DNA of 64,000 nt, from contig NZ_JAZHSB010000001.1 in assembly GCF_036924715.1 (NCBI RefSeq), positions 4,951,001 to 5,015,000 of the forward strand, in the 5' to 3' direction. Every line of letters begins with the position of its first letter. Positions within the stretch are counted from its first letter, which is position 1. This document shows, one piece after another, positions 2,744 to 35,679 of the stretch. This stretch comes from Bradyrhizobium sp. AZCC 1721 (GTDB lineage: Bacteria; Pseudomonadota; Alphaproteobacteria; Rhizobiales; Xanthobacteraceae). Below the pieces are notes generated by a model that was not told the origin of the DNA, ran no database searches, and saw only the letters and a list, made by a program, of their open reading frames with translations. The translations under genes and the position numbers were made by a program.

Positions 2744-4339
2744 TCACGATGCCAGCGCGGTTAGAAGCATCCGCGCGAGATCGGCGCTGAGGTAAGGCTT
2801 CGGCAGCAGCAGCACGCCAGCATCGAGACGGCCGTGATGTACAAGGGCATTCTCCGCATAGCCAGAGGTATAAAGCACTTTGAGCCCTGGGCGTCTTTTG
2901 ACCCCCTCGGTCGCGAGCTGGCGGCCATTCATTCCACCGGGGAGCATTACGTCAGTGAACAGCAGGTCAATGCGTTCGGGTCCATCGATGATTGCCAGCG
3001 CCTCGGCAGCATTGCCGGCCGCGAGCGCGTGGAACCCGAAACGGGTGATCTGCGCCACGACGTATTCGCGAACCAGCGGGTCGTCCTCGACAATCAAGAT
3101 AGACTCATCGCTGTGTTCGCCCGCATACCCGCCAGTCTCGCCGGCGGGTGCCTCCGGGCCACCACCCGTGGCCTGCGGCAGGTACAGCTTCACGGTCGTG
3201 CCGTGGCCCTCTTCGCTGTAGATCTTGATGTGTCCATTCGACTGTTTAACGAAGCCATAGACCATGCTGAGGCCGAGCCCTGATCCCTTCCCGGCCTCCT
3301 TGGTGGTAAAGAATGGTTCAAACACCTTTTCGAGCAGGCTGCTGGGGATTCCGTCCCCCGTGTCACTTACTGCAATCATGACGTAGTTGCCCGGTCTAAC
3401 CTCGCTGTTCACGCGAGCGTAGTTCTCGTCGAGCACCACATTCTTGGTTTCTAACGTCAGCTTCCCGCCGTTAGACATGGCGTCACGCGCATTTAGGGCG
3501 AGATTCAGGATCGCGGTCGAGAGCTGACTGGGATCAATCAGAGCCGGCGCGGAATCGTGCGCCAGCATCGATTCAATTTCGATGTGTTCGCCGAGGGTCG
3601 GCCGTAGCAGACTCGCTGCATCGATCACCAACGCGTTGACGTCGGTATTGCGCGGCTGCAGCGGCTGTCTACGGGAGAAGGCCAACAGATGCTTCGTCAG
3701 CTCAGCTCCCCTAGCTGCGGCTCCGCTAATCAGATTGGTGATCTGAGCGAGATGTGGACGATCCTTGACCGCATCGCTGAGGATCTCGATGGTCCCGGTG
3801 ATCACAGTCAGAATGTTGTTGAAGTCGTGGGCGACGCCACCGGTGAGCTGGCCAATGGCTTCCATCCTCTGCGCTTGCCGGACCTTGGATTCGGTCGCCT
3901 CTTTCTCCTCAAAGCGCCTGACCATGGCCTCAGCTTCGCGGCGTTGCCTGACTTCCTCCTCAAGTGCCGCATAGGCACTCGCAAGCTGGATGCGCGTGGG
4001 CAGCACCAGGATCCGCGGCAGCAGCAGCAGTAGTGCTGCCGCGATCACGACGGAGATCAGCGCCAGCAAAGCTTTGGTCAGGGCCTCGATTTCATAAGCC
4101 GGCACCCACACAGTGTAGATCGACAGCAGGCGGGTCACTCCGCAGACCGCGACGAAGATCGCGAATGTCAAGAATACGCCCCGGAACATCAGCTCATGGT
4201 GGCGCCGCCACACGAAGAACGCGAGGACGAACGCCGTAGCAAAGAAGGCGCCGGCGAGTATCGCGTCGGAAATGACATTCAGCCAGATCAGTTCCGGCTT
4301 CCACAATAAGCACGCGCCGTGCGCGGTGAGCGTCGACAT
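2744..4339 (-). CDS. hybrid sensor histidine kinase with ethylene-receptor-like membrane domain
   Basis: 531 residues from the ATG at 4339, which has a GGAG site 8 bases upstream; a TTG nine codons earlier is less likely. Order: three membrane helices (about residues 18-110), a coiled linker, HisKA with the H-box GGVAHDFNN, a HATPase domain (N-box NARDAM, VSDTGDGIP, GKGSGLGLS), and a C-terminal receiver domain (ILIVEDD, phosphoacceptor Asp in LLFTDVMLPG, and the conserved Lys in PKPY). The membrane part follows the plant and cyanobacterial ethylene-receptor pattern: Asp in VISDAI, then Cys in AVCGVTR at the expected spacing. The His that helps bind copper in ethylene receptors is replaced by Arg. 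The ligand is therefore unclear. Confidence 0.85.
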   Translation of the reverse strand: MSTLTAHGACLLWKPELIWLNVISDAILAGAFFATAFVLAFFVWRRHHELMFRGVFLTFAIFVAVCGVTRLLSIYTVWVPAYEIEALTKALLALISVVIAAALLLLLPRILVLPTRIQLASAYAALEEEVRQRREAEAMVRRFEEKEATESKVRQAQRMEAIGQLTGGVAHDFNNILTVITGTIEILSDAVKDRPHLAQITNLISGAAARGAELTKHLLAFSRRQPLQPRNTDVNALVIDAASLLRPTLGEHIEIESMLAHDSAPALIDPSQLSTAILNLALNARDAMSNGGKLTLETKNVVLDENYARVNSEVRPGNYVMIAVSDTGDGIPSSLLEKVFEPFFTTKEAGKGSGLGLSMVYGFVKQSNGHIKIYSEEGHGTTVKLYLPQATGGGPEAPAGETGGYAGEHSDESILIVEDDPLVREYVVAQITRFGFHALAAGNAAEALAIIDGPERIDLLFTDVMLPGGMNGRQLATEGVKRRPGLKVLYTSGYAENALVHHGRLDAGVLLLPKPYLSADLARMLLTALAS

Positions 4340-23897: not shown

Positions 23898-23922
23898 GGA
23901 CGGGTTGCAGCGGGAGGCTCAG

Positions 23923-24348
23923 ATGTTCAAGTCGATTCTCGTGCCGATCGATCTGGCTGATACCGATCTGGCCAAGCCCGCGATCGCGACCGCCGCAACG
24001 CTGTCGCAAACCTGGAGCGGCTCGGTACGATTGCTCAATGTGTTGCCGATGACGCCAGTGATGCTGGCGGAATACGTGCCGGCCGATTTTGACGTCCAGC
24101 AGCGCGCGACCTCGGAGGAAGCGCTCGCGATCGTGGCGCAGGAATCCGGCATCGAGGCGCCGCGCATTTCCACCGCAGTGCGGAAAGGCGGCATCTATCA
24201 CGAGATCCTTGAAGAAGCGGCGGCGGTCAAGGCCGACCTGATCGTGATGACCTCGCACCGGCCGGCGATGCGGACCTATTTTCTCGGCTCCAACGCCGGC
24301 CATGTGGTGCGCTATGCCAAGTGCTCGGTGCTGGTGGTCCGCCATTAG
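23923..24348 (+). CDS. universal stress protein (UspA family)
   Basis: 141 residues from the ATG at 23923, with GGGAGG upstream. Single Usp domain: FKSILVPIDLAD at the start, then LIVMTSHRPAMRTYFLGSNAGHVVRYAKCSVLVVRH, where the ATP-binding G-x2-G-x9-GS motif is modified. It probably works as a dimer in the cytoplasm during stress. The last 122 bases overlap the 3' end of the convergent MFS transporter gene. Confidence 0.85.
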   Translation: MFKSILVPIDLADTDLAKPAIATAATLSQTWSGSVRLLNVLPMTPVMLAEYVPADFDVQQRATSEEALAIVAQESGIEAPRISTAVRKGGIYHEILEEAAAVKADLIVMTSHRPAMRTYFLGSNAGHVVRYAKCSVLVVRH

Positions 24349-25585
24349 GCCACCTGAGTACCGCGCGATTCTGGTGACCCTTCCACCCGTGCAGGACCAG
24401 CGCGAGAAGGGACGTCAGCGCCAGCACGGTTCCAAGCCCGATGGCCGGGTCGCTGGAGAGGATCGCCGCGAGCGAGGCGCCACATGCCGCCCCAGCCATT
24501 TGGGAGAAGCCGAACAAGGCTGCCGCCAGGCCGGCCTTACTACCGAATGGCGACAGCGCGGCCGCACTCGACAGCGGGCTCGCGATCCCCACCCCGAACA
24601 GAAAGATGGAAGCGGCGACGAGAAACAGCAGCAGCGAGTTCCTCACGACCATAGCCGCGAGAAGCAGCGCGACACCTCCTATAACGACCGATACCAGGCC
24701 GACCAGCGTCGCATGATAGGAACCGAACCGTGCCGAAAGTCTCGGCGCCAGCATACCTGCTCCAAACACCAGGAAAACAACGGCTGCATACAGCAGACCC
24801 AGCATAACCGGGGACAAGCCGAAGCCTTCGAGAAATATGCGTGGCGCGCCTGAGACAACGGCGTACAGGCCGGCCATCAAGAGACCTGCAGTCCTGGCAG
24901 GCGCAACGAACCGGGCGTCTCGAAGCAGGCCGAGATAGGAACCGGCAATGTCGAGCGGATGCAGGGAACTGTCGGAGGCCATCTTGGTTTCGCCGACGAA
25001 TATCGTATACGCCGCCCCGGCGCAGATCGTGAAGATCGCGACAAAAGCAAACTCCGAGCGCCAGCCGAGAAGATGATCAAGCGCACTGCCCACGAGCGGT
25101 GAGAACCCCGGGGCAGCGGCCGTCGCGATCGTGATCGATGCCATCACCTTTGCCAGCGCCTGGCCATCAAACAGATCCCGGGCGATGGCGCGCGAGAGCA
25201 CGGCAGCCGTACATGCGCCGCAAGCTTGCAGCGATCGGCCAACCAGGAGGCCCAACAGATCGCCCGCAAACGCGCACCAGATCGTTCCGAGCACGAAAAT
25301 GCAGAGCCCGATCAGGATAGGCATTTGCCGTCCAAGTCGGTCCGACAACGGGCCCACAATCAACTGTCCGACGGCAAAAATCGCCAGAAAAACCGTAATG
25401 GTCGAAGTGACGGCCGCGCTGGAAACGCGCAGATCGGCCGCTATCACCGACAGCGAGGGCAGAAAGATATTCGTCGAAAGAATTCCCGTAGCTGCAAATG
25501 CACAAATCACTGCCCTGGACGCTATTGCTGGTCGCTGCCTGGGCGCGGTCGCAGGCAATTTGCTCAGAACGACTTCGATGCTCAT
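24227..25585 (-). CDS. Bcr/CflA-type MFS drug transporter
   Basis: About 452 residues from the ATG at 25585 (MSIEVVLSKLP). Twelve membrane helices with Bcr/CflA features: STNIFLPSLSVIAADL, GQLIVGPLSDRLGRQMPILIG (the MFS motif A), CGACTAAVLSRAIARDLF. The C-terminal 40 residues (after LHGWKGHQNR) are Pro/Ser/Arg-rich and arise from reading antisense into the usp gene, so that tail is atypical. It probably exports small hydrophobic compounds. Preceded on the same strand by a LuxR regulator that may control it. Confidence 0.85.
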   Translation of the reverse strand: MSIEVVLSKLPATAPRQRPAIASRAVICAFAATGILSTNIFLPSLSVIAADLRVSSAAVTSTITVFLAIFAVGQLIVGPLSDRLGRQMPILIGLCIFVLGTIWCAFAGDLLGLLVGRSLQACGACTAAVLSRAIARDLFDGQALAKVMASITIATAAAPGFSPLVGSALDHLLGWRSEFAFVAIFTICAGAAYTIFVGETKMASDSSLHPLDIAGSYLGLLRDARFVAPARTAGLLMAGLYAVVSGAPRIFLEGFGLSPVMLGLLYAAVVFLVFGAGMLAPRLSARFGSYHATLVGLVSVVIGGVALLLAAMVVRNSLLLFLVAASIFLFGVGIASPLSSAAALSPFGSKAGLAAALFGFSQMAGAACGASLAAILSSDPAIGLGTVLALTSLLALVLHGWKGHQNRAVLRWPNGGPPAPSTWHSAPHGRRWSRENRSASPAGARSSRSGRP

Positions 25586-25706
25586 GGCTTGCGTGCCTTC
25601 CGCCGATCGGGACGCTGGCCACCTTGAACAATTGATTGTTGGGTGTCGTCCTACGAATGCCGGAGAAACTCGCAAATCAACATCCGGGCCCGACCGAACG
25701 TCGCGC

Positions 25707-26939
25707 TCAGTCGGTCAGCGGCGTCGCATAGCCGGCGACGAGCTTGACGAGATCTGCCTGCCGCGCGGTGCCCGTCTTTTCGAACAGGCGGCTGACATGC
25801 GTCCTGATCGTCGTGTCGGCAACGCCAAATGCGATCGCGACTTCCGGGATACCGCCGACTTCGACGATCGCCAGCAACACGCGAAGTTCGGTCGGCGTCA
25901 GCTTGAACGCGCTGCCGATGGCTTGAGGCGCGGACGAGACCGCCAAGGCCGCCTTGCGAACGAACAAAGCCGCGGCAGCGGTATAGACAACACCGGCGCG
26001 GCGGCGTGCGCCCGAGGTCAGCGGCAGGGCATGGGCGACATAGCGCTCGCCATCGCTTCCGATCAGAGGAACGGCGATCCCCTTGTTGCCGAGCGCCGCA
26101 TCGCCCTGCCCTGCAGCCGCAAAGACGTCTCGCAAGGCGCGGTCGACCTGCGCATCATTGGCTGCCAGCCGCCCGCCCACCGAGCTCAGAATGTCGCTGG
26201 TGCCGAGAATGGCGTTGCCGGCGGCATTGGCGTGAATGAGGCGTCCTGCCGCATCGACGAGATACATGCCCGCACCAAGCCCGTCGAGCGCATCGACGAA
26301 TGTCGCCACCTCCGCCGCCTTGAACTCGAACAGCCGCCCGATCAACACGGCGCGCCTGATATGCGGGGCGATCAGCCTCATCTGTCGGCGCGCGTAGTCG
26401 TCGACCATGCCGTTTCGCTTGTGGCGGAACACTCCGAAGATGGCTGAGCTGATCACCGTCCTGTCGAGGACCGCGCTCAGGAAATCAACCAGGCCCTGAG
26501 GCTCGGCCCATTGTCGATAAAAGTCGGTCTGAGCATAGTCTGCGAAAGGCATCAGATCGGTGGTGGCAATCGGCACTTCGAGATCGCCGAGAAAGTGCCC
26601 CTCCGCAGCCGAATAGATCTGTCGAAAGAGGGCAACGGGCAACGGCCGCTCAAAGCCAACGCTGTGCGGTATCGCGGCGTGCGGCACTCCGACGTCCTTG
26701 CAGAAAAGTCCGGCGCCGGAGCCGCCGACAAAAAGGGCGACCCTTTCGAGGGTGCGCTGCCAAAGCGATGGATCAATGGCGGCATCATAAACGATGCCAA
26801 TCAGGTCACTGAGCTGTTGCTGATTATGGAAAGCGCCTTCGGAGACCGACCGCAGATGTGACACTGTGTTCATTCCGAAACGCTTCCCGGTGCAGGCGTC
26901 ATGATGCGCGCTTGCGTACTTGCGATGATCCGGGCTCAT
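25707..26939 (-). CDS. LuxR-type transcriptional regulator with PAS-like sensor part
   Basis: 410 residues. The C-terminus has the LuxR/FixJ helix-turn-helix: FKLTPTELRVLLAIVEVGGIPEVAIAFGVADTTIRTHVSRLFEKTG. The centre (VATFVDALDGLGAGMYLVDAAGRLIHANAAGNAIL) resembles a PAS fold. The first 200 residues (DLIGIVYDAAIDPSLWQRTLERVALFVGG) are typical of this LuxR subclass in rhizobia. Ligand unknown. It lies 121 bases upstream of the Bcr/CflA transporter gene on the same strand, the most likely target. The ATG at 26939 is used; an ATG at codon 23 is an alternative. Confidence 0.75.
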   Translation of the reverse strand: MSPDHRKYASAHHDACTGKRFGMNTVSHLRSVSEGAFHNQQQLSDLIGIVYDAAIDPSLWQRTLERVALFVGGSGAGLFCKDVGVPHAAIPHSVGFERPLPVALFRQIYSAAEGHFLGDLEVPIATTDLMPFADYAQTDFYRQWAEPQGLVDFLSAVLDRTVISSAIFGVFRHKRNGMVDDYARRQMRLIAPHIRRAVLIGRLFEFKAAEVATFVDALDGLGAGMYLVDAAGRLIHANAAGNAILGTSDILSSVGGRLAANDAQVDRALRDVFAAAGQGDAALGNKGIAVPLIGSDGERYVAHALPLTSGARRRAGVVYTAAAALFVRKAALAVSSAPQAIGSAFKLTPTELRVLLAIVEVGGIPEVAIAFGVADTTIRTHVSRLFEKTGTARQADLVKLVAGYATPLTD

Positions 26940-27008: not shown

Positions 27009-27083
27009 GGGGCTCAGGCCAATCGCGGTGCCGCGGCGCATCATTACGATCGCGCCTTACCGGCGCGGGATGGCCTGCCCCCG

Positions 27084-30000
27084 TCAGAAGGCGACGCGTA
27101 TGCCACCCCTGGCAGTCCCGATGCGGCTCTGGTCGGACATCGCAACGCCTTCCACGGCGCCGAACAGAGCGACGTTCTTGGCGGTGTGGTAGTCGAAGCC
27201 GGCGCCGAACACCGCGCCCATCGTACTGCCCTTGCCCGGTGTCGCGAACGAAAGGTTTTGGCCGATCAGCACCGTGTTGACGGTAGTGTCGCCGACGCGT
27301 TGCTGCGCGATCACGCCGCCATGGACACTGGTCTTCAGGCTGTGATCGCCGCCGAAGAAGCTCGTCGTCTTCGACACTTCGAGTTGGCCGCGCTCCTCGA
27401 AATTCTGCAGGGTGCGGCTGCCCACCGTCAGCCCCTGCGCCGAACCCGTCTCGGAGTAGCCATCGAAGAAGCCGGCGACGTAGCGCACGCGCGCCGTCGG
27501 CGTCAGCACATAGCCGTTGCCGATCTGGTAGCGCATGCCATAGGCCAGTTCCGGACTGATGAACCAGCCGTCGTATCGCGCCTTCGCCGTCTCCGCAGCA
27601 CCGTTGTTCAACACCAGCCGGTCCGACTTGTTGGAGGAGCTGCCGCCCTGCACCGTGAAATCGAAGAACTGAGCGGCCCATTCGAAGCGGCTGTAGGCGC
27701 CGGCGAACAAATAATCGGTATCGACATGCTGCGAGCCGAGATCGACCGACAGCCGTCCCGAGCCGCCGCCGATGAAGGCGCCGACCAGCCAATCCGGCCG
27801 CACCCTGCGGTCGATGCCGATCGCGCTGCTCCAGGCGGTGTTGGTGGCGCGCAAGGTGGCGGCCGTCTCGTCCTGGGTGCGCTGACCGCCGAAACTATTG
27901 GCCCATACCGTGATCGGCGCAGCGTTGCTCCAGCCGGCAGCGCTGGGAGCCTTGACGAAGCGCCCGGCATCGGTGCTCTCCGGCGCGTATGCCATCGCCA
28001 TCATCGATCCGTTCGCCGACGGCGGCGCACCGTTCAGCCGGCCCTGCACCAGCGACGACACGCCGCCGGTGAAATCCATCAGCGCGCGATCGGCCAGCGC
28101 CAGCGCGGTCGGATCGAGGGTTGCGAGCGTCGTCCCGGCCGAGACCGCCGGATTGTTGTTGCCGGTGGAGAAGCTGGTGTTGAGGACACCGGTGAAATTT
28201 ATGAAAGTTGGAAGCGCCACTGACGTCAGTGACGACACCCGGGTTTTGGGCGCGCTGATCGCAACGTTAACGATGTCGTCGCCAAAACCCATGTCGACCA
28301 CGCCGACGATGCGCGAACCGGTCCGCAATGTCAGCGTGTCGGCGGCGGAGGTCAGCTTGATTGCGGTACCGCCAGTGCCGACGATGCTACCGGAATTGTC
28401 GATGGTGCTGCCGTTACCAAAGGAAAGGATGCCAACGTCGCCCGACACCGTGCCGGAATTGGCTATCGTGCCCCGGTCAACAAGGATGCCGCTAAGCGCT
28501 CCCGAAATGCTGCCGGAATTGGTGATGGTCGCAGCGTGTGCCGCCACACCGAACCTGCCTCCCGCAATCGAGCCGGAATTGATGCCCTTGACGTTGTCAC
28601 CGAAAACAGCCGATTCGCCGCCAGACATGGCGCCCGAGTTGACGAGATCGATATTGTTCGCGCTGATCGCTCTATTGCTGCCGGAGATATTGCCGGAATT
28701 AGTGAGGTTGACGACGCCGGCCGAGAGCGCGATGTCGCGCGAGATGATGCTACCGGAATTGGTGACGTCGATCCTGCCATTACCGCCGTTTCCGGCGGCG
28801 ATGCCGAATACGCCACCGGAGATGATGCCGCCGTTGTTCACGGTCGTGCGCGTGAAGGCAGTGATGCCGCTGTTCCCGCCCGAGATGGTGCCGGAATTCA
28901 CCACGTTGGCGACGTCGCCTCCCCGAATGCCGGTGCCGTCTACAGCCGTGGCCTCGATGGTGCCCGCGTTCTCTACACTGGCGACACGGGCGGAAATGCC
29001 GAACTGCCCACCCGAGATGGTGCCGCGGCCGGCATTGTTCACGCTAGCGGTATCACCCTCGATGGCGGCGCTGCTTGCTCCCGCGATCGTGCCGGAGTTG
29101 TTCACGTTCAGGGAACCGAGGGAGACAACGCCTCCACGAGCACCCGCAATGATGCCGGTGTTGCGCGTCACGTTGATGTTGCCGCCATCGCGACTGACAC
29201 TGACAATGCCAAAATTGTTGCCTGAGATGGTGCCGGCATTCGCTACGTTCGCGAGCGTCGTGACGTCGATGCCAGCGAATCCGCCCGAAATGGTGCCGGC
29301 GTTAGCCACATCCGCGAAGGTGAAAGTTCTGATGCCCGCCAGCCCACCCGAAATGGCGCCCGAGTTGTTCACAACGGCGGTGGCAGCCGCGATACCGTCC
29401 GCGTTGGCCGAGATTGTGCCCGTATTGACTACCTCGGCATTGGCAGCACCGATCCCGATGCCGACACCGTTTGTGCCCGGCGCCAAGATACTGCCGGCAT
29501 TGTTCACCCGGGCGGTTTCGGCATTGATCCCAATCGCCCCACCCGAAATCGTGCCGGTAACCCTATTAATGGTATCGGCGAAGGTGGCGCTAATGCCGAT
29601 ACCGCTGACGCCGGTCGCCGTTATCGCGCCAGCATTGTCCACCTTGGCGGTGACAGCGCGGATGCCCTGCACCTCACCCGAGATGGTGCCGGTCGACCTG
29701 TTGATCACGTCGCCGAAGGTATTCGCAAGGATGCCGGCGCCGTCTGTGCGCGTCGCCAATATCGAGCCGGCATTATCTACTTTGGCAGTACCGGCGGCGA
29801 TGCCCGCTTCCTCGGCCAATATGGTACCGGAGTTCGTCACGGTGGCGGGGCCCACGGCAATGATACCGGCTGTAGCGGCAATAGTGCCGAAATTATTAAC
29901 CGTGCCGTCGTTAAATACCAAGCCAATGTCGGTTCCGGCCACCAGGCCACCAGACAGGACGTTGATGGTGTTGCCGCTATCGGTAAAGCTGCCGTAACCG

Positions 30001-30173
30001 TCAAAGCCATTTGCATTGGTCGTCGTCCCGGTACAGGTGACGGTGACATTGCTGGCCGGCGATGCCGGATCGCACGCGGCCTCGGCGCGGTCCACCGGTG
30101 CGGCCAGGGCAATCAACGGCGCCAGCCCGATTGCGTGTCGCAGCATAGAATGGGGTTGAGCCAACAATTTCAT
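27084..30173 (-). CDS. autotransporter B (type V secretion, beta-barrel)
   Basis: About 1030 residues; the ATG at 30173 (codon 3 of a longer frame) has GGAG 6 bases upstream. Signal peptide to about AEA-ACDP. The passenger is a run of about 20-residue NSGTISGG-type repeats that should fold as a beta-helix. Residues from about 740 form the outer-membrane autotransporter barrel, ending [11 protein letters not shown] with the C-terminal aromatic residue needed for BAM insertion. The barrel and 100 residues before it are nearly identical to autotransporter A (30588-33665); the passengers differ. The passenger's activity is unknown. It may mediate adhesion. Confidence 0.9.
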
Positions 30174-30351
30174 TTCCATCTCCAGATTCGTTCGATTTCG
30201 CGCTGATCGTTGGGGTACCGATCGCGCACGAAGTCCGCGTCCTACGAACCTGGGAGATGACGACCCGCTTCCTTTCTATTCGGGGTAATGAGCTATTTTA
30301 GCCACGCTGCGTGATCGCGCGTTGCGCGGTACGCGATCCGACAAACAATTT

Positions 30352-30375
30352 CGGCCCGGTCGATCGACCGGGCCG
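30352..30375. terminator. palindromic terminator after the truncated DUF1127 gene
   Basis: A fully palindromic 24-mer (CGGCCCGGTCGA / TCGACCGGGCCG) downstream of the minus-strand DUF1127 copy and upstream of autotransporter B. The equivalent element at 33866-33889 has one mismatch. Confidence 0.65.
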
Positions 30376-30406
30376 TTTGATGTGTAGAGCGATTAATCCG
30401 GGCACT

Positions 30407-30556
30407 TCACGTGATGCGCCCGAAATCCGGATCGACGCTGCCGCGCACGGCCGATTCAATCCGGCTGTGTTCGATCCCGATGTCGCGGAGCGCACGGTCG
30501 TCCAGTTCGCTCAGGGTTTGGATGGCGTAGCGGCGCGGGAAATTAATAATGATCAC
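30407..30556 (-). pseudogene. DUF1127 protein, N-terminally truncated copy
   Basis: The frame encodes INFPRRYAIQTLSELDDRALRDIGIEHSR, the conserved DUF1127 core, and ends VDPDFGRIT. The complete sister copy at 33923-34159 has about 30 more N-terminal residues. The first usable start here is a GTG at 30556 without a ribosome-binding site, immediately beside the tail of autotransporter A. The 5' part was evidently lost at the duplication junction. The core could still be made from the GTG, so it may be functional. Confidence 0.6.
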
Positions 30557-30587
30557 ACATGGCCGGCGCGGGATGGCCTGCCCCCCG

Positions 30588-33500
30588 TCAGAAGGCCACA
30601 CGAATTCCTCCCCTGGCAGTCCCGATGCGGCTCTGGTCGGACATCGCAACGCCTTCCACGGCGCCGAACAGAGCGACGTTCTTGGCGGTGTGGTAGTCGA
30701 AGCCGGCGCCGAACACCGCGCCCATCGTACTGCCCTTGCCCGGTGTCGCGAACGAAAGCCCCTGCCCGATCAGCACCGTGTTGACGGTGGTGTCGCCGAC
30801 GCGTTGCTGCGCAATCACGCCGCCATGGACGCTGGTTTTCAGCATGTGATCGCCGCCGAAGAAGCTCGTCGTCTTCGACACTTCGAGCTGGCCGCGCTCC
30901 TCGAAATTCTGCAGGGTGCGGCTGCCCACCGTCAGCCCCTGGGCCGAACCCGTCTCGGAGTAGCCATCGAAGAAGCCGGCGACGTAGCGCACGCGCGCCG
31001 TCGGCGTCAGCACATAGCCGTTGCCGATCTGGTAGCGCATGCCGTAGGCCAGTTCCGGACTGATGAACCAGCCGTCGTATCGCGCCTTCGCCGTCTCCGC
31101 AGCACCGTTGTTCAACACCAGCCGATCCGACTTGTTGGTCGAGCTGCCGCCCTGCACGGTGAAATCGAAGAACTGCGACGCCCATTCGAAGCGGCTGTAG
31201 GCGCCGCCGAACAGGTAGTCGGTGTCGACACGCTGCGAGCCGAGATCGACTGCGAGCCGTCCCGAGCCGCCGCCGATGAAGGCGCCGACCAGCCAGTCCG
31301 GCCGCACCCTGCGGTCGATGCCCAAGGCGCTGCTCCAGGCGGTGTTGGTGGCGCGCAAGGTGGCGCTGGTCTCGTCCTGGGTGCGCTGACCGCCGAAACT
31401 ATTGGCCCATACCGTGATCGGCGCAGCGTTGCTCCAGCCGGCAGCGCTGGGAGCCTTGACGAAGCGCCCGGCATCGGTGCTCTCCGGCGCGTATGCCATC
31501 GCCATCATCGATCCGTTCGCCGACGGCGGCGCACCGTTCAGCCGGCCCTGCACCAGCGACGACACGCCGCCGGTGAAATCCATCACCGCGCGATCGGCCA
31601 GCGCCAGCGCGGTCGGATCGAGGGTTGCGAGCGTCGTCCCGGCCGAGACCGCCGGATTGTTGTTGCCGGTGGAGAAGCTGGTGTTGAGGACACCGGTGAA
31701 ATTTATGAAAGTTGGAAGCGCCACTGACGTCAGTGACGACACCCGGGTTTTGGGCGCGCTGATCGCAACGTTAACGATGTCGTCGCCAAAACCCATGTCG
31801 ACCACGCCGACGATGCGCGAACCGGTCCGCAATGTCAGCGTGTCGGCGGCGGAGGTCAGCTTGATTGCGGTACCGCCAGTGCCGACGATGCTACCGGAAT
31901 TGTCGATGGTGCTTCCTTTGGTGAAGGTTGTCCGGACGCCGATATCGCCCGAGATGGTACCGGAATTGGTAATGGCAGCACTAGCCGCAAAGATGCCGGT
32001 CTCCGCTCCCGATATGCTGCCGGAGTTGGCGACAATCGAATCTCCCGCGTCCATCCCGAATCTACCTCCGGCGATCCTACCCAAATTCACGACGTTGACG
32101 TTACCACCCAGAATGGCGGATTCGCCGCCCGACATGACACCCGAATTGACGAGATCGATATTGTTCGCGCTGATCGCTCTGTTGCTGCCGGAGATATTGC
32201 CGGAATTGTTGACGTTGATGGTGCCGGACGCGAGAGCGATGTCGCGCGAGGTGACGCTGCCGGAATTGGTGAGGTCGATCGTGCCATTACCGCCGTTTCC
32301 GGCCGCGATGCCGAACACACCGCCGGAGATCATACCGCCGTTTCGCACAGTCGCGCGCGTGAAGGCGGTGATGCCGGCGTTCCCTCCCGAGATGGAGCCG
32401 GAATTGATGACATCCGCGGTGGCTTGAGCGCGGATACCTTTGCCGCTCACATTCTCGCCCGATATGTTGCCTGCATTATTTACCCTAGTGGCGCCGGCGC
32501 TGACGCCGGCGTCATTTCCTAAAATGATGCCAGAATTGTTCACCGTGGCATCTGCGGCGCTAATCGCGATTCCGCCCGCAATCGTCGCGCGGATCAGGCC
32601 GGTGCTTGAATTGGTTACATCGACCGCGCTCCCGCTGCTGATCGCTTGTGTGATACCGAAGAGGTTGCCCGAATTAATCACCTTGTCCGGGCTACCGCCG
32701 ATGGCCTCCACGCCCGTAATCGTGCCTGTGTTGTTGATGGCACCACCGGAAAATCGCACGGTCTGGCCAAACGATGAGATCAGGCCGTCGTTATTGATAG
32801 TGCCGTCGACAACAGCAATCGCAGATGTTCCTCCGAATATCCTGCCTGTCGCGAAGTTGTTGATAGTAGCACTAGTGATGGCATTGATGCCGATACCGGC
32901 CGCATCGGTCGCTGCAATGCGGCCCGCATTGTCGATCCTGACGGTGGCGGCTTCGATGCCAGCGTGAAAACCAGAGATGTTGCCGCTAACCCCGTTGGCC
33001 ACATTGACCTCGGCATCAGACCGAATGCCAAACGCTGCAAGCCCAACAATGTCGCCTGTATTGGCAACGTTAAGAGATTTGAGGCTTGATATACCGTCGA
33101 TATCGCCCCTGATGGTGCCGGTGTTGGAGATTTCGCCGATTCCGCCGTCCCTAAGAAAACTGACACCGGCACCTCCGCCCGAGATAGTGCCCGCATTAGA
33201 CACCTTGGCTTGATCGACAATCAGAACACCATCACTACCGGTGATGGTGCCGCTTTGCGCGTTCGTCACCTCGCCGCTTTGCAGTTCAACGCCGACTCGC
33301 AGTCCGGAGATAATCCCAGAGTTGTTTACAGCCCCTAACAATGCCCAAAAAATTCCGCTGGAGCCTCCCGCAATGGATCCGGAATTGTTGACGGTTCCGC
33401 GGCTAAACGTCAGGCCATGGCGCGTTCCTGTCACCGAGGCGCCGGAAGCGACGTTGATGGTGTTGCCGGTATCGGTATCCGTGCCATAACCGTCGGTACC

Positions 33501-33665
33501 GTTGGCGTTAGTCGTGGTACCCGCGCAGGTGATGGTGGAATTGTTGACCGGCGACGTCGGATCACATGCCGCCTGAGCGCGATCGAACGCCGCGATTGGC
33601 GCGACCAGCGGCGCCAGCGCGATGGCGTGCCGCAACATAAGGTGGCTTGCGCGTAACAAGGTCAT
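30588..33665 (-). CDS. autotransporter A (type V secretion, beta-barrel)
   Basis: About 1025 residues; the ATG at 33665 has GGAG 6 bases upstream. Signal peptide ending near AQA-ACDP, then a passenger made of Asn/Ser/Gly-rich repeats ([15 protein letters not shown] variants), then the barrel ending GIRVAF. The C-terminal half differs from autotransporter B at only about a dozen residues, and its DNA is almost unchanged, whereas the repeat part is strongly divergent. It is preceded by a complete DUF1127 gene and terminator, the same order as the second module. Its role in host or surface attachment is inference. Confidence 0.9.
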
Positions 33666-33865
33666 TTCCATCTCCAGATTCGCTCGGTTCCGTTGCGTTG
33701 ATCGTTCACGTACCGATCGCGCACGAAGTCGGCGTCCTACGAACCTAGGAGACGGCCACGGGTCTTCATTCTATTCTGGGTAGTGGGATATTTTAGCCAC
33801 GCATGCGCCATTGAACGCCGCCCGGGAGGCTCGCTCGGTTCAACGGAGCGGCGCACGACGCAAGT

Positions 33866-33889
33866 CGGCCCGATCGATTGACCGGGCCG
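33866..33889. terminator. hairpin terminator after DUF1127 gene
   Basis: CGGCCCGATCGA / TTGACCGGGCCG stem with one mismatch, downstream of the DUF1127 gene on the minus strand. The counterpart is the perfect palindrome at 30352-30375. Confidence 0.6.
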
Positions 33890-33922
33890 TTGGCATTGCA
33901 GATCGATGAAGCCGAACGCGTC

Positions 33923-34159
33923 TCACATCATTCGCCCGTACATCGGATCGATGACGCCGCGCACGGCCGATTCGATTTGGCTGCGCTCGACACCGATGTC
34001 GCGAAGCGCGCGATCGTCCAGCTCACTCAACGTTTTGATGGCCTCGCGGTGCGCAAAATGAGTAACGATGCCGTTCACCCAGCGTCCGAGCAGGCCGAAA
34101 AATCCGACCGGGCCCTTCCGGGAAGCAGGCTGACCCGCCGTCTGGGATATCGTCGTCAT
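33923..34159 (-). CDS. DUF1127 domain protein
   Basis: 78 residues with GPVGFFGLLGRWVNGIVTHFA then the DUF1127 core REAIKTLSELDDRALRDIGVERSQIESAVRG. Small DUF1127 proteins are basic, often nutrient-regulated, and some bind RNA. AAGGAG lies 8 bases before the ATG. It heads the autotransporter A module. Divergent from the MocR-type regulator. Confidence 0.8.
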   Translation of the reverse strand: MTTISQTAGQPASRKGPVGFFGLLGRWVNGIVTHFAHREAIKTLSELDDRALRDIGVERSQIESAVRGVIDPMYGRMM

Positions 34160-34254
34160 CGTTCTTCTCCTTGCTTGCGAACGGCAAAGCGCTGCCGCCG
34201 GCGCAAACGCCGTCTAAGCGCCTGCACCTATTGAGTTCTGATTGCTTGCACCCC

Positions 34255-34337
34255 TCTCAGTGCAATCATGGGCTTGATGGGTCCAAAATGATCCGATACA
34301 TTTCTCGGTGCAAGGAAAACATTGCTCTCGGTGCAAT
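34255..34337 (+). promoter_or_regulatory. three direct repeats upstream of the MocR-type regulator
   Basis: TCTC(A/G)GTGCAA occurs at 34255-34265, 34303-34313 and 34326-34336, the last ending just before the start codon. Start-to-start distances are 48 and 23 bases. MocR/GntR regulators commonly bind paired direct repeats, so autoregulation is likely. Confidence 0.6.
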
Positions 34338-34338
34338 A

Positions 34339-35679
34339 ATGTCGAAGTTCGAGTACTTAAAGCTTGCCGATACCGTCGCCGCCGAGATCGCCAACGGCGC
34401 GCTCAAGCCCGGCGATCGCCTGCCGCCGCAGCGCAGCTTCGCCTATCAGCGCAAGATCGCGGTCTCGACCGCGAGCCGCGTCTATACCGAGTTGTTGCGC
34501 CGTGGCCTGGTGGTCGGCGAAGTCGGACGCGGCACGTTCGTGTCTGGCGAGACGCGCCGCGGCATCGCCATGCCGGCCGAGCCGCGCGGCGCGCGTATCG
34601 ATCTGGAAGTGAACTACCCGATACTGCCGACGCAATCGGCGATGATCGCAAGAAGCCTTGCAGGGCTGGAACGCCCCGAGGTGCTCGATCTCGCGTTGCG
34701 GCACTCGACCACGGCAGGCACTCTTGCCGCGCGGACCATTTCCGCCGAGTTTCTCTCCCGCGAGGACTGGTCGCCGGCCCCCGATCAACTCGTCTTCACG
34801 GCGAACGGGCGGCAATGCATCGCCGCCGCTCTTGCGGCGGTGGTGCCGAGCGGCGGCCGCTGCGGCGTCGAGGCGCTGACCTATCCGTTCATCAAGGACA
34901 TCGCCGTCAGGCTTGGCGTGACGCTGGTGCCGCTTGCGATGGATGAGAACGGCGTTCGCCCGGACGCCGTGCAGAAGGCTCACCGCGAAGCGCATTTGTC
35001 GGCGCTGTACGTTCAGCCGACGATACAAAACCCGCTCGGCATGACCATGCCAGCGGCGCGCCGCGCCCATTTGCTGCGCGTGGTCGAGAAGCTCGGCCTC
35101 ACCGTCATTGAGGATACGGTCTACGGCTTTCTTGACGAAGAAACCCCGATGGCCGCGCTCGCGCCGGATAACTGCATCACGCTCGACAGCCTGTCGAAGA
35201 AGGTGGCGCCGGGCCTTGCCCTCGGCTTCATCGTGTCGCCGCCGCGGCTGCGCGAACGCGTCATGTCCGCGGTTCGATCGGGCGGATGGACGGCTTCGGG
35301 ATTTGCGTTTGCCGCCGGACAGCGCTTGATGGCGGATGGCACTGTTGCCGAGCTGTCACGCCTGAAACGCATCGATGCGGCACGGCGCCAGCAGATGGCG
35401 GCCAAATACCTCGCCGGATTCGATGTTCAGGCCAACGTCAAATCCTACCATCTCTGGCTGACCTTGCCCCAGCACTGGCGCTCGCAGACATTCGTCGCGG
35501 CCGCGGCCCGGCGCGACATCGCGTTGACCCCTTCGACTACCTTCGCGGTAAGTCCGGGACACGCCCCCAACGCGGTCCGCCTGGCGCTCGGCGCCCCCAG
35601 CACCGAACAGCTCGAACTGGCGCTGCGAACGTTGTCGGGAATGCTGACGGCGAAGGAAGACGTCGATACGACCGAGTAG
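34339..35679 (+). CDS. MocR/PdxR-type GntR regulator with aminotransferase domain
   Basis: 446 residues from the ATG at 34339, which follows the third operator repeat. N-terminal GntR winged helix: ADTVAAEIANGALKPGDRLPPQRSFAYQRKIAVSTASRVYTELLRRG, then a fold-type I aminotransferase-like domain. The PLP lysine is in CITLDSLSKKVAPGLALGF, with IQNPLG and VIEDTVYGFL before it. These proteins sense PLP or amino-acid-related ligands and usually regulate a neighbouring gene. Neighbours are DUF1127 (divergent) and YdcF (convergent). No transporter or pyridoxal gene is adjacent, so the target is unknown. Confidence 0.9.
   Translation: MSKFEYLKLADTVAAEIANGALKPGDRLPPQRSFAYQRKIAVSTASRVYTELLRRGLVVGEVGRGTFVSGETRRGIAMPAEPRGARIDLEVNYPILPTQSAMIARSLAGLERPEVLDLALRHSTTAGTLAARTISAEFLSREDWSPAPDQLVFTANGRQCIAAALAAVVPSGGRCGVEALTYPFIKDIAVRLGVTLVPLAMDENGVRPDAVQKAHREAHLSALYVQPTIQNPLGMTMPAARRAHLLRVVEKLGLTVIEDTVYGFLDEETPMAALAPDNCITLDSLSKKVAPGLALGFIVSPPRLRERVMSAVRSGGWTASGFAFAAGQRLMADGTVAELSRLKRIDAARRQQMAAKYLAGFDVQANVKSYHLWLTLPQHWRSQTFVAAAARRDIALTPSTTFAVSPGHAPNAVRLALGAPSTEQLELALRTLSGMLTAKEDVDTTE

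Follow-up and report, generated by a model that had tools for sequence, protein, structure and literature searches.

Organization of the locus

The window analyzed here is a stretch of 64,000 nucleotides from Bradyrhizobium sp. AZCC 1721, positions 4951001 to 5015000 of one 7.15-Mb contig, and the relatives in our comparison collection are likewise Bradyrhizobium. On the minus strand we found, in this order, a DUF1127 gene, a stem-loop, a leader, an autotransporter gene (U), a DUF1127 fragment, a stem-loop, a leader, a second autotransporter gene (D), a LuxR-family gene, and an MFS gene. These features and their neighbors are listed below by position in the window; A and B are our own labels for two clades of relatives.

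34327-35679, plus strand: MocR-like regulator gene, divergent from the intact DUF1127 gene
33923-34159, minus strand: intact DUF1127 gene, 78 aa, native clade A allele according to same-locus orthologues and tree (Pfam PF06568, 36.4 bits)
33866-33889, minus strand: GC-rich, terminator-like stem-loop after the intact DUF1127 gene, seen in the sequence, with a weak T tail
33672-33865, minus strand: leader/promoter region of autotransporter U, clade A type (sister to G051 in the tree)
30588-33671, minus strand: autotransporter U, 1027 aa, with signal region, beta-helix passenger, and beta barrel (PF03797, 113.5 bits)
30588-31913, minus strand: linker and beta-domain segment of U, near-identical to 28409-27084 in D by identity profiles
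30529-30562, minus strand: junction between the shared 24 to 25 nt past the stop and the DUF1127 fragment, from comparison of U, D, and relatives
30407-30553, minus strand: truncated DUF1127 gene, codons ~31 to 78, clade B allele, open frame kept (PF06568, 26.6 bits)
30352-30375, minus strand: terminator-like stem-loop after the DUF1127 fragment, clade B form, seen in the sequence
30180-30351, minus strand: leader/promoter region of autotransporter D, clade B-like (88% to G101)
27084-30179, minus strand: autotransporter D, 1031 aa (PF03797, 117.7 bits; mosaic map)
25707-26939, minus strand: LuxR-family regulator gene with PAS-like and GerE domains, both below the Pfam cut-off; native allele, 94 to 99% nucleotide identity to G088
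24227-25675, minus strand: Bcr/CflA-type MFS efflux gene, last of the accessory cassette (TIGR00710, 208.7 bits)
23905-24348, plus strand: Usp gene, so identified by reading of the sequence, convergent with the MFS gene

As originally predicted, two modules of about 3.5 kb lie head to tail, at an offset of ~3504 nt. Each consists of DUF1127, a stem-loop, a leader, and an autotransporter of ~1030 aa, with the predicted terminator-like stem-loop between DUF1127 and leader present in both; the DUF1127 copy is intact in module U and, again as predicted, truncated in module D. The intact gene and the fragment both exceed the Pfam cut-off for PF06568 (23.3 bits), and the C-terminal beta domains of both autotransporters exceed that for PF03797 (26 bits). 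The order autotransporter-LuxR-MFS is the same in G088, G101, G102, and G191. At its predicted end, the MFS gene runs ~120 nt into the convergent Usp gene; consequently, most of the MFS "remnants" that protein searches detect near Usp in other genomes are antisense Usp. We dropped such remnants in cassette-less genomes as candidates: most matches to MFS 444-482 are antisense to Usp, and only that in G051 (366-482) looks real. An RNA element in the leader was also considered and dropped, since an Rfam scan of the window returned no match above the gathering score (one chance-level match lay near the region). A scan for sigma-70 promoters was uninformative, with 4 sites against 2.4 expected and none inside a leader.

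The autotransporter N-terminus is hydrophobic and, judged by eye, ends in an A-x-A-like site. An AlphaFold2 model of U shows a long beta-helix of repeated short strands, with pLDDT of 85 to 97 over most of residues 200 to 630; the barrel was poorly modeled from a shallow alignment of 17 sequences (pLDDT ~25), and its assignment rests on Pfam. Across 266 genomes of the genus, the best match to the U passenger outside its own genome reached 48% identity. The passengers matched no Pfam or NCBIfam model and no PDB sequence, and a PDB fold search with the U model returned only matches with E values of at least 0.43, led by Fap2, HxuA, a self-associating protein, and pertactin. In their C-terminal PF03797 barrel and predicted beta-helix passenger, U and D resemble type Va autotransporters of the AIDA-I/Ag43/pertactin type; they differ from these in having passengers without model or sequence matches and with nonsignificant fold matches. 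Adhesion is the usual role of beta-helix autotransporters. U and D most likely represent two type Va autotransporters that would present different beta-helix passengers through near-identical barrels, each with its own leader and both probably under control of the downstream LuxR.

Likeness of the two modules and lineage of their parts

Identity between U and D is uneven, at ~78% over the 3′ half of DUF1127, 77% over ~220 nt of leader, ~70% in the signal region, and ~40 to 55% in the passengers, which are effectively unalignable. From 31913 in U and 28409 in D to a point ~24 nt beyond the stops, identity is ~97%, with tracts at 100%. The leaders, which had been described as near-identical, are thus less alike than claimed and lie no nearer one another than they do to leaders from other species. 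The beta-domain segments differ at 42 to 43 positions in ~1305 nt, with 30 of 43 differences in third codon positions, and their longest identical runs are 309 and 217 nt (P = 0.0005 by permutation with random placement of differences). Here U and D are each other's closest relatives, although the 42 changes between them indicate that the segment is not one fresh copy.

The ~24 to 25 nt that follow both stop codons are common to U and D (30587-30563 and 27083-27060), confirming the bases reported to be shared with the copy at 27060; this sequence in its U/D form was not found in G088, G101, G102, G200, or G191. The junction falls between about 30562 and 30529, in agreement with the position near 30563 first proposed, and the join after the U stop lacks clear homology; a possible GCGCCGC microhomology is too short to weigh. 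Beyond it, the DUF1127 fragment retains an open reading frame, for which a GTG may serve as start codon, and its pN/pS against clade B is 0.27, compared with 0.15 among clade B genes, both from few sites. We read the fragment as a probable scar under weak or no constraint.

In 20 relatives, the DUF1127 genes occupying this locus proved to be mainly of two types. A clade A type (VERSQI...IDPMYGRMM) is carried by G088, G039, G051, G040, G058, G169, G199, G053, G127, and, roughly, G024, and a clade B type (IERSRIESAVRG.VDPDFGRI) by G101, G102, G019, G228, G032, and G200, with G153 and G250 near it. The intact DUF1127 gene is of type A and the fragment of type B: the latter matches G200 and G032 at 130 of 147 positions (88%) and the adjacent intact gene at 114 of 147 (78%). 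Sisterhood of intact gene and fragment was rejected by 38 log-likelihood units (AU P = 2.4e-6), and sisterhood of U and D over DUF1127, stem-loop, and leader by 84 units (AU P ~1e-55), in DUF1127 and leader alignments that are short (132 to 373 columns). In the tree, the leaders of U and G051 are sisters with support of 100/99, or 100/100 when DUF1127 is included. The leaders of G040 and G058 lie near D though their DUF1127 genes belong to clade A, so that some leaders depart from the clade split.

According to the neighboring MocR gene, the host belongs to clade A, close to G039 and G088, and a mosaic map gives 95 to 98% identity to these genomes, and ~90% to clade B, for the window backbone outside the cassette. 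The MFS gene is at a similar distance from every relative compared. The 5′ end of D is nearest to G101 (88 to 90%), and the stretch from 28900 to 28000 is 96 to 98% identical to clade B genome G102 versus 85 to 92% to G088. These mosaic identities indicate that the D allele bears clade B-derived tracts within a clade A chromosome. A blastn hint that G088 might itself be a U/D hybrid was dropped when a windowed comparison put its 5′ leader about equidistant from U and D.

Origin of the tandem pair

The locus combines a mixture of alleles, a junction, a shared 3′ end, and identical tracts. We consider it probable that the pair unites two xenologous alleles of a single accessory locus, rather than having arisen as an in-place copy of a functional DUF1127-autotransporter unit. 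A clade A resident, with the order DUF1127, autotransporter, LuxR, and MFS, would have received behind its autotransporter a clade B fragment running from inside the donor's DUF1127 gene through leader and autotransporter. One end of this fragment may have paired with the conserved beta domain or linker, the side on which we infer homology, while the other would have joined without homology just past the resident stop; the DUF1127 fragment would be the scar of this event. Such a mechanism would resemble homology-facilitated illegitimate recombination. Gene conversion, which we would place after the joining, may then have swapped tracts of the beta domain while the passengers stayed unlike. A donor with the exact D module was not found among the genomes compared.

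The order of these events is not fixed, and most of the same data would fit an in-place duplication in a clade B-type ancestor, after which a clade A allele replaced the upstream DUF1127 gene, leader, and passenger. A true duplication would yield both the post-stop sequence common to U and D and their near-identical beta domains, and recombination is frequent at this locus. However, this course requires the same import plus a duplication and, because the backbone and the downstream LuxR gene are of clade A, must assume and then undo an earlier clade B-type locus; we regard it as unlikely. Far less credible is a simple in-place tandem duplication with passengers that diverged later; this would explain the head-to-tail order, the constant ~3.5-kb offset, and the single junction but conflicts with the AU tests on DUF1127 and leader and with a fragment more similar to the other clade than to its neighbor. 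The original prediction of a duplicated module therefore stands insofar as the tandem modules are homologous and their beta domains are closest relatives, and fails for their 5′ part.

The proposed joining of two alleles has a counterpart in the type VI secretion effector-immunity arrays of Vibrio cholerae, in which an incoming allele is added at a homologous locus while all or some of the earlier gene stays behind, a process likened by its authors to homology-facilitated illegitimate recombination (PMC5361080). Both cases would involve addition of an allele beside a resident gene; here, unlike in V. cholerae, the gene encodes a surface autotransporter, the resident appears to be whole, and what marks the site as a scar is a piece of a foreign DUF1127 gene. 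The homogenized 3′ part with its identical tracts and the divergent 5′ part likewise recall concerted evolution of tandem paralogues by gene conversion, except that U and D appear to have started as alleles of different clades and not as copies. A literature search on reassortment of antigen 43 found nothing. The processes invoked are known ones, of which this locus would be a well-resolved instance; a recurring pattern in the genus is only hinted at.

Gene neighbors and tandem arrays of the autotransporter family

DNA resembling DUF1127 with its stem-loop is widespread across the 266 genus genomes, many of the weaker matches being other DUF1127 paralogues. Between MocR and Usp, DUF1127 is found without the autotransporter in G039, G169, G199, G053, G127, G024, G250, G128, and G032; scraps of the cassette are kept in G051, G019, G228, G040, G058, and G200; and the cassette is present in G088, G101, and G102. 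In G101, a further LuxR gene separates DUF1127 from the autotransporter. Of the 266 Bradyrhizobium genomes, 44 contain the autotransporter family, and G191 has the autotransporter with its leader but without DUF1127. A LuxR-family gene lies directly downstream of the autotransporter in 30 of the 32 loci readable past the stop (exceptions, G018 and G252).

The coupling of DUF1127 to the autotransporter envisaged by the original prediction did not survive this survey. That the two form a functional regulatory module kept together could be argued from their adjacency in G000, G088, and G102, their shared locus in G101, and their decayed forms in G019, G228, G040, and G058. Yet among the matches listed, down to E ~8e-6, DUF1127 stands beside the autotransporter family in only 4 of the 44 genomes (G000, G088, G101, and G102), it persists where the autotransporter is absent, and its own stem-loop is conserved in relatives that include cassette-less genomes (e.g., G039 and G169). 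Tandem autotransporters at another locus, moreover, have LuxR and not DUF1127 neighbors. We therefore hold a functional module to be highly improbable. Given its distribution, DUF1127 is likely an independent conserved gene, a bystander that takes no part with the autotransporter, and the recurrent neighbor of the family, as judged by gene order, is the downstream LuxR-type regulator. DUF1127 small proteins (Agrobacterium SDPs, YjiS) reportedly affect PhoR and the uptake of phosphate (PMC12501420), which provides no link to the autotransporter; the protein in the window shares their Pfam domain but, at 78 aa, differs from the many studied members of <50 aa. In the parts of the literature available to us, no link between DUF1127 and an autotransporter was found.

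Two loci show altered forms of the cassette. In Bradyrhizobium algeriense (L086, 4678-13424), DUF1127 is followed by an autotransporter start, a second LuxR gene (60% identical), and an intact autotransporter-LuxR-MFS series, which looks like a former tandem pair minus its first autotransporter. In G051 (L109, reverse complement 2909-3439), the start of an autotransporter leader runs into the 3′ end of an MFS gene beside Usp, apparently a deletion scar of the cassette.

Tandem pairs or longer arrays without DUF1127 occur in an uncultured Bradyrhizobium (L090), B. manausense SZCCT0344 (L095), B. canariense SZCCT0289 (L092), and G191 (L133), and contig-end fragments of such arrays in B. neotropicale (L093) and G047. 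The L090 pair has 54% identity in the signal region, an unalignable passenger, and a 96% identical beta domain in which 539 nt in a row are identical (P < 5e-5); the L133 pair resembles it, and the L095 pair is without homogenization (85%). In G191 the L133 pair (2974000-2988000), of the same family, lies ~190 kb from the cassette. At a second genomic locus of the family (L047-L059, L087-L107), one LuxR gene often lies upstream and two downstream, about 37 to 41% identical to that of the window. Several contigs of B. neotropicale (L093, L103, and L105) and G047 (L062-L064) end inside an autotransporter, with the order barrel-signal-passenger on tiny contigs, and are likely unresolved arrays of at least two copies. 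Errors arise readily in repeats with tracts at 100%, and the draft genomes G097 and G047 have contig ends inside such arrays, but the pair described here lies on a single 7.15-Mb contig and its copies differ too strongly outside the beta domain for a spurious repeat, so an assembly artifact is very unlikely.

It is conceivable, and we suggest it tentatively, that the conserved barrel end of this LuxR-linked family may serve as a standing recombination anchor at which entire foreign passengers are added next to the resident gene or swapped into it, building small arrays of interchangeable surface proteins in Bradyrhizobium by a cassette-like diversification of surface display. For the locus studied here, a tempting reading as a tandem duplication with DUF1127 coupling has been corrected: what looks like a duplication can instead be a foreign allele added beside the resident one, betrayed by a fragment of a foreign gene. 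The LuxR-linked autotransporter family in Bradyrhizobium, in which tandem arrays recur, passengers differ, and barrels are partly homogenized, offers a tractable case for the study of surface-protein diversification in a plant-associated genus.
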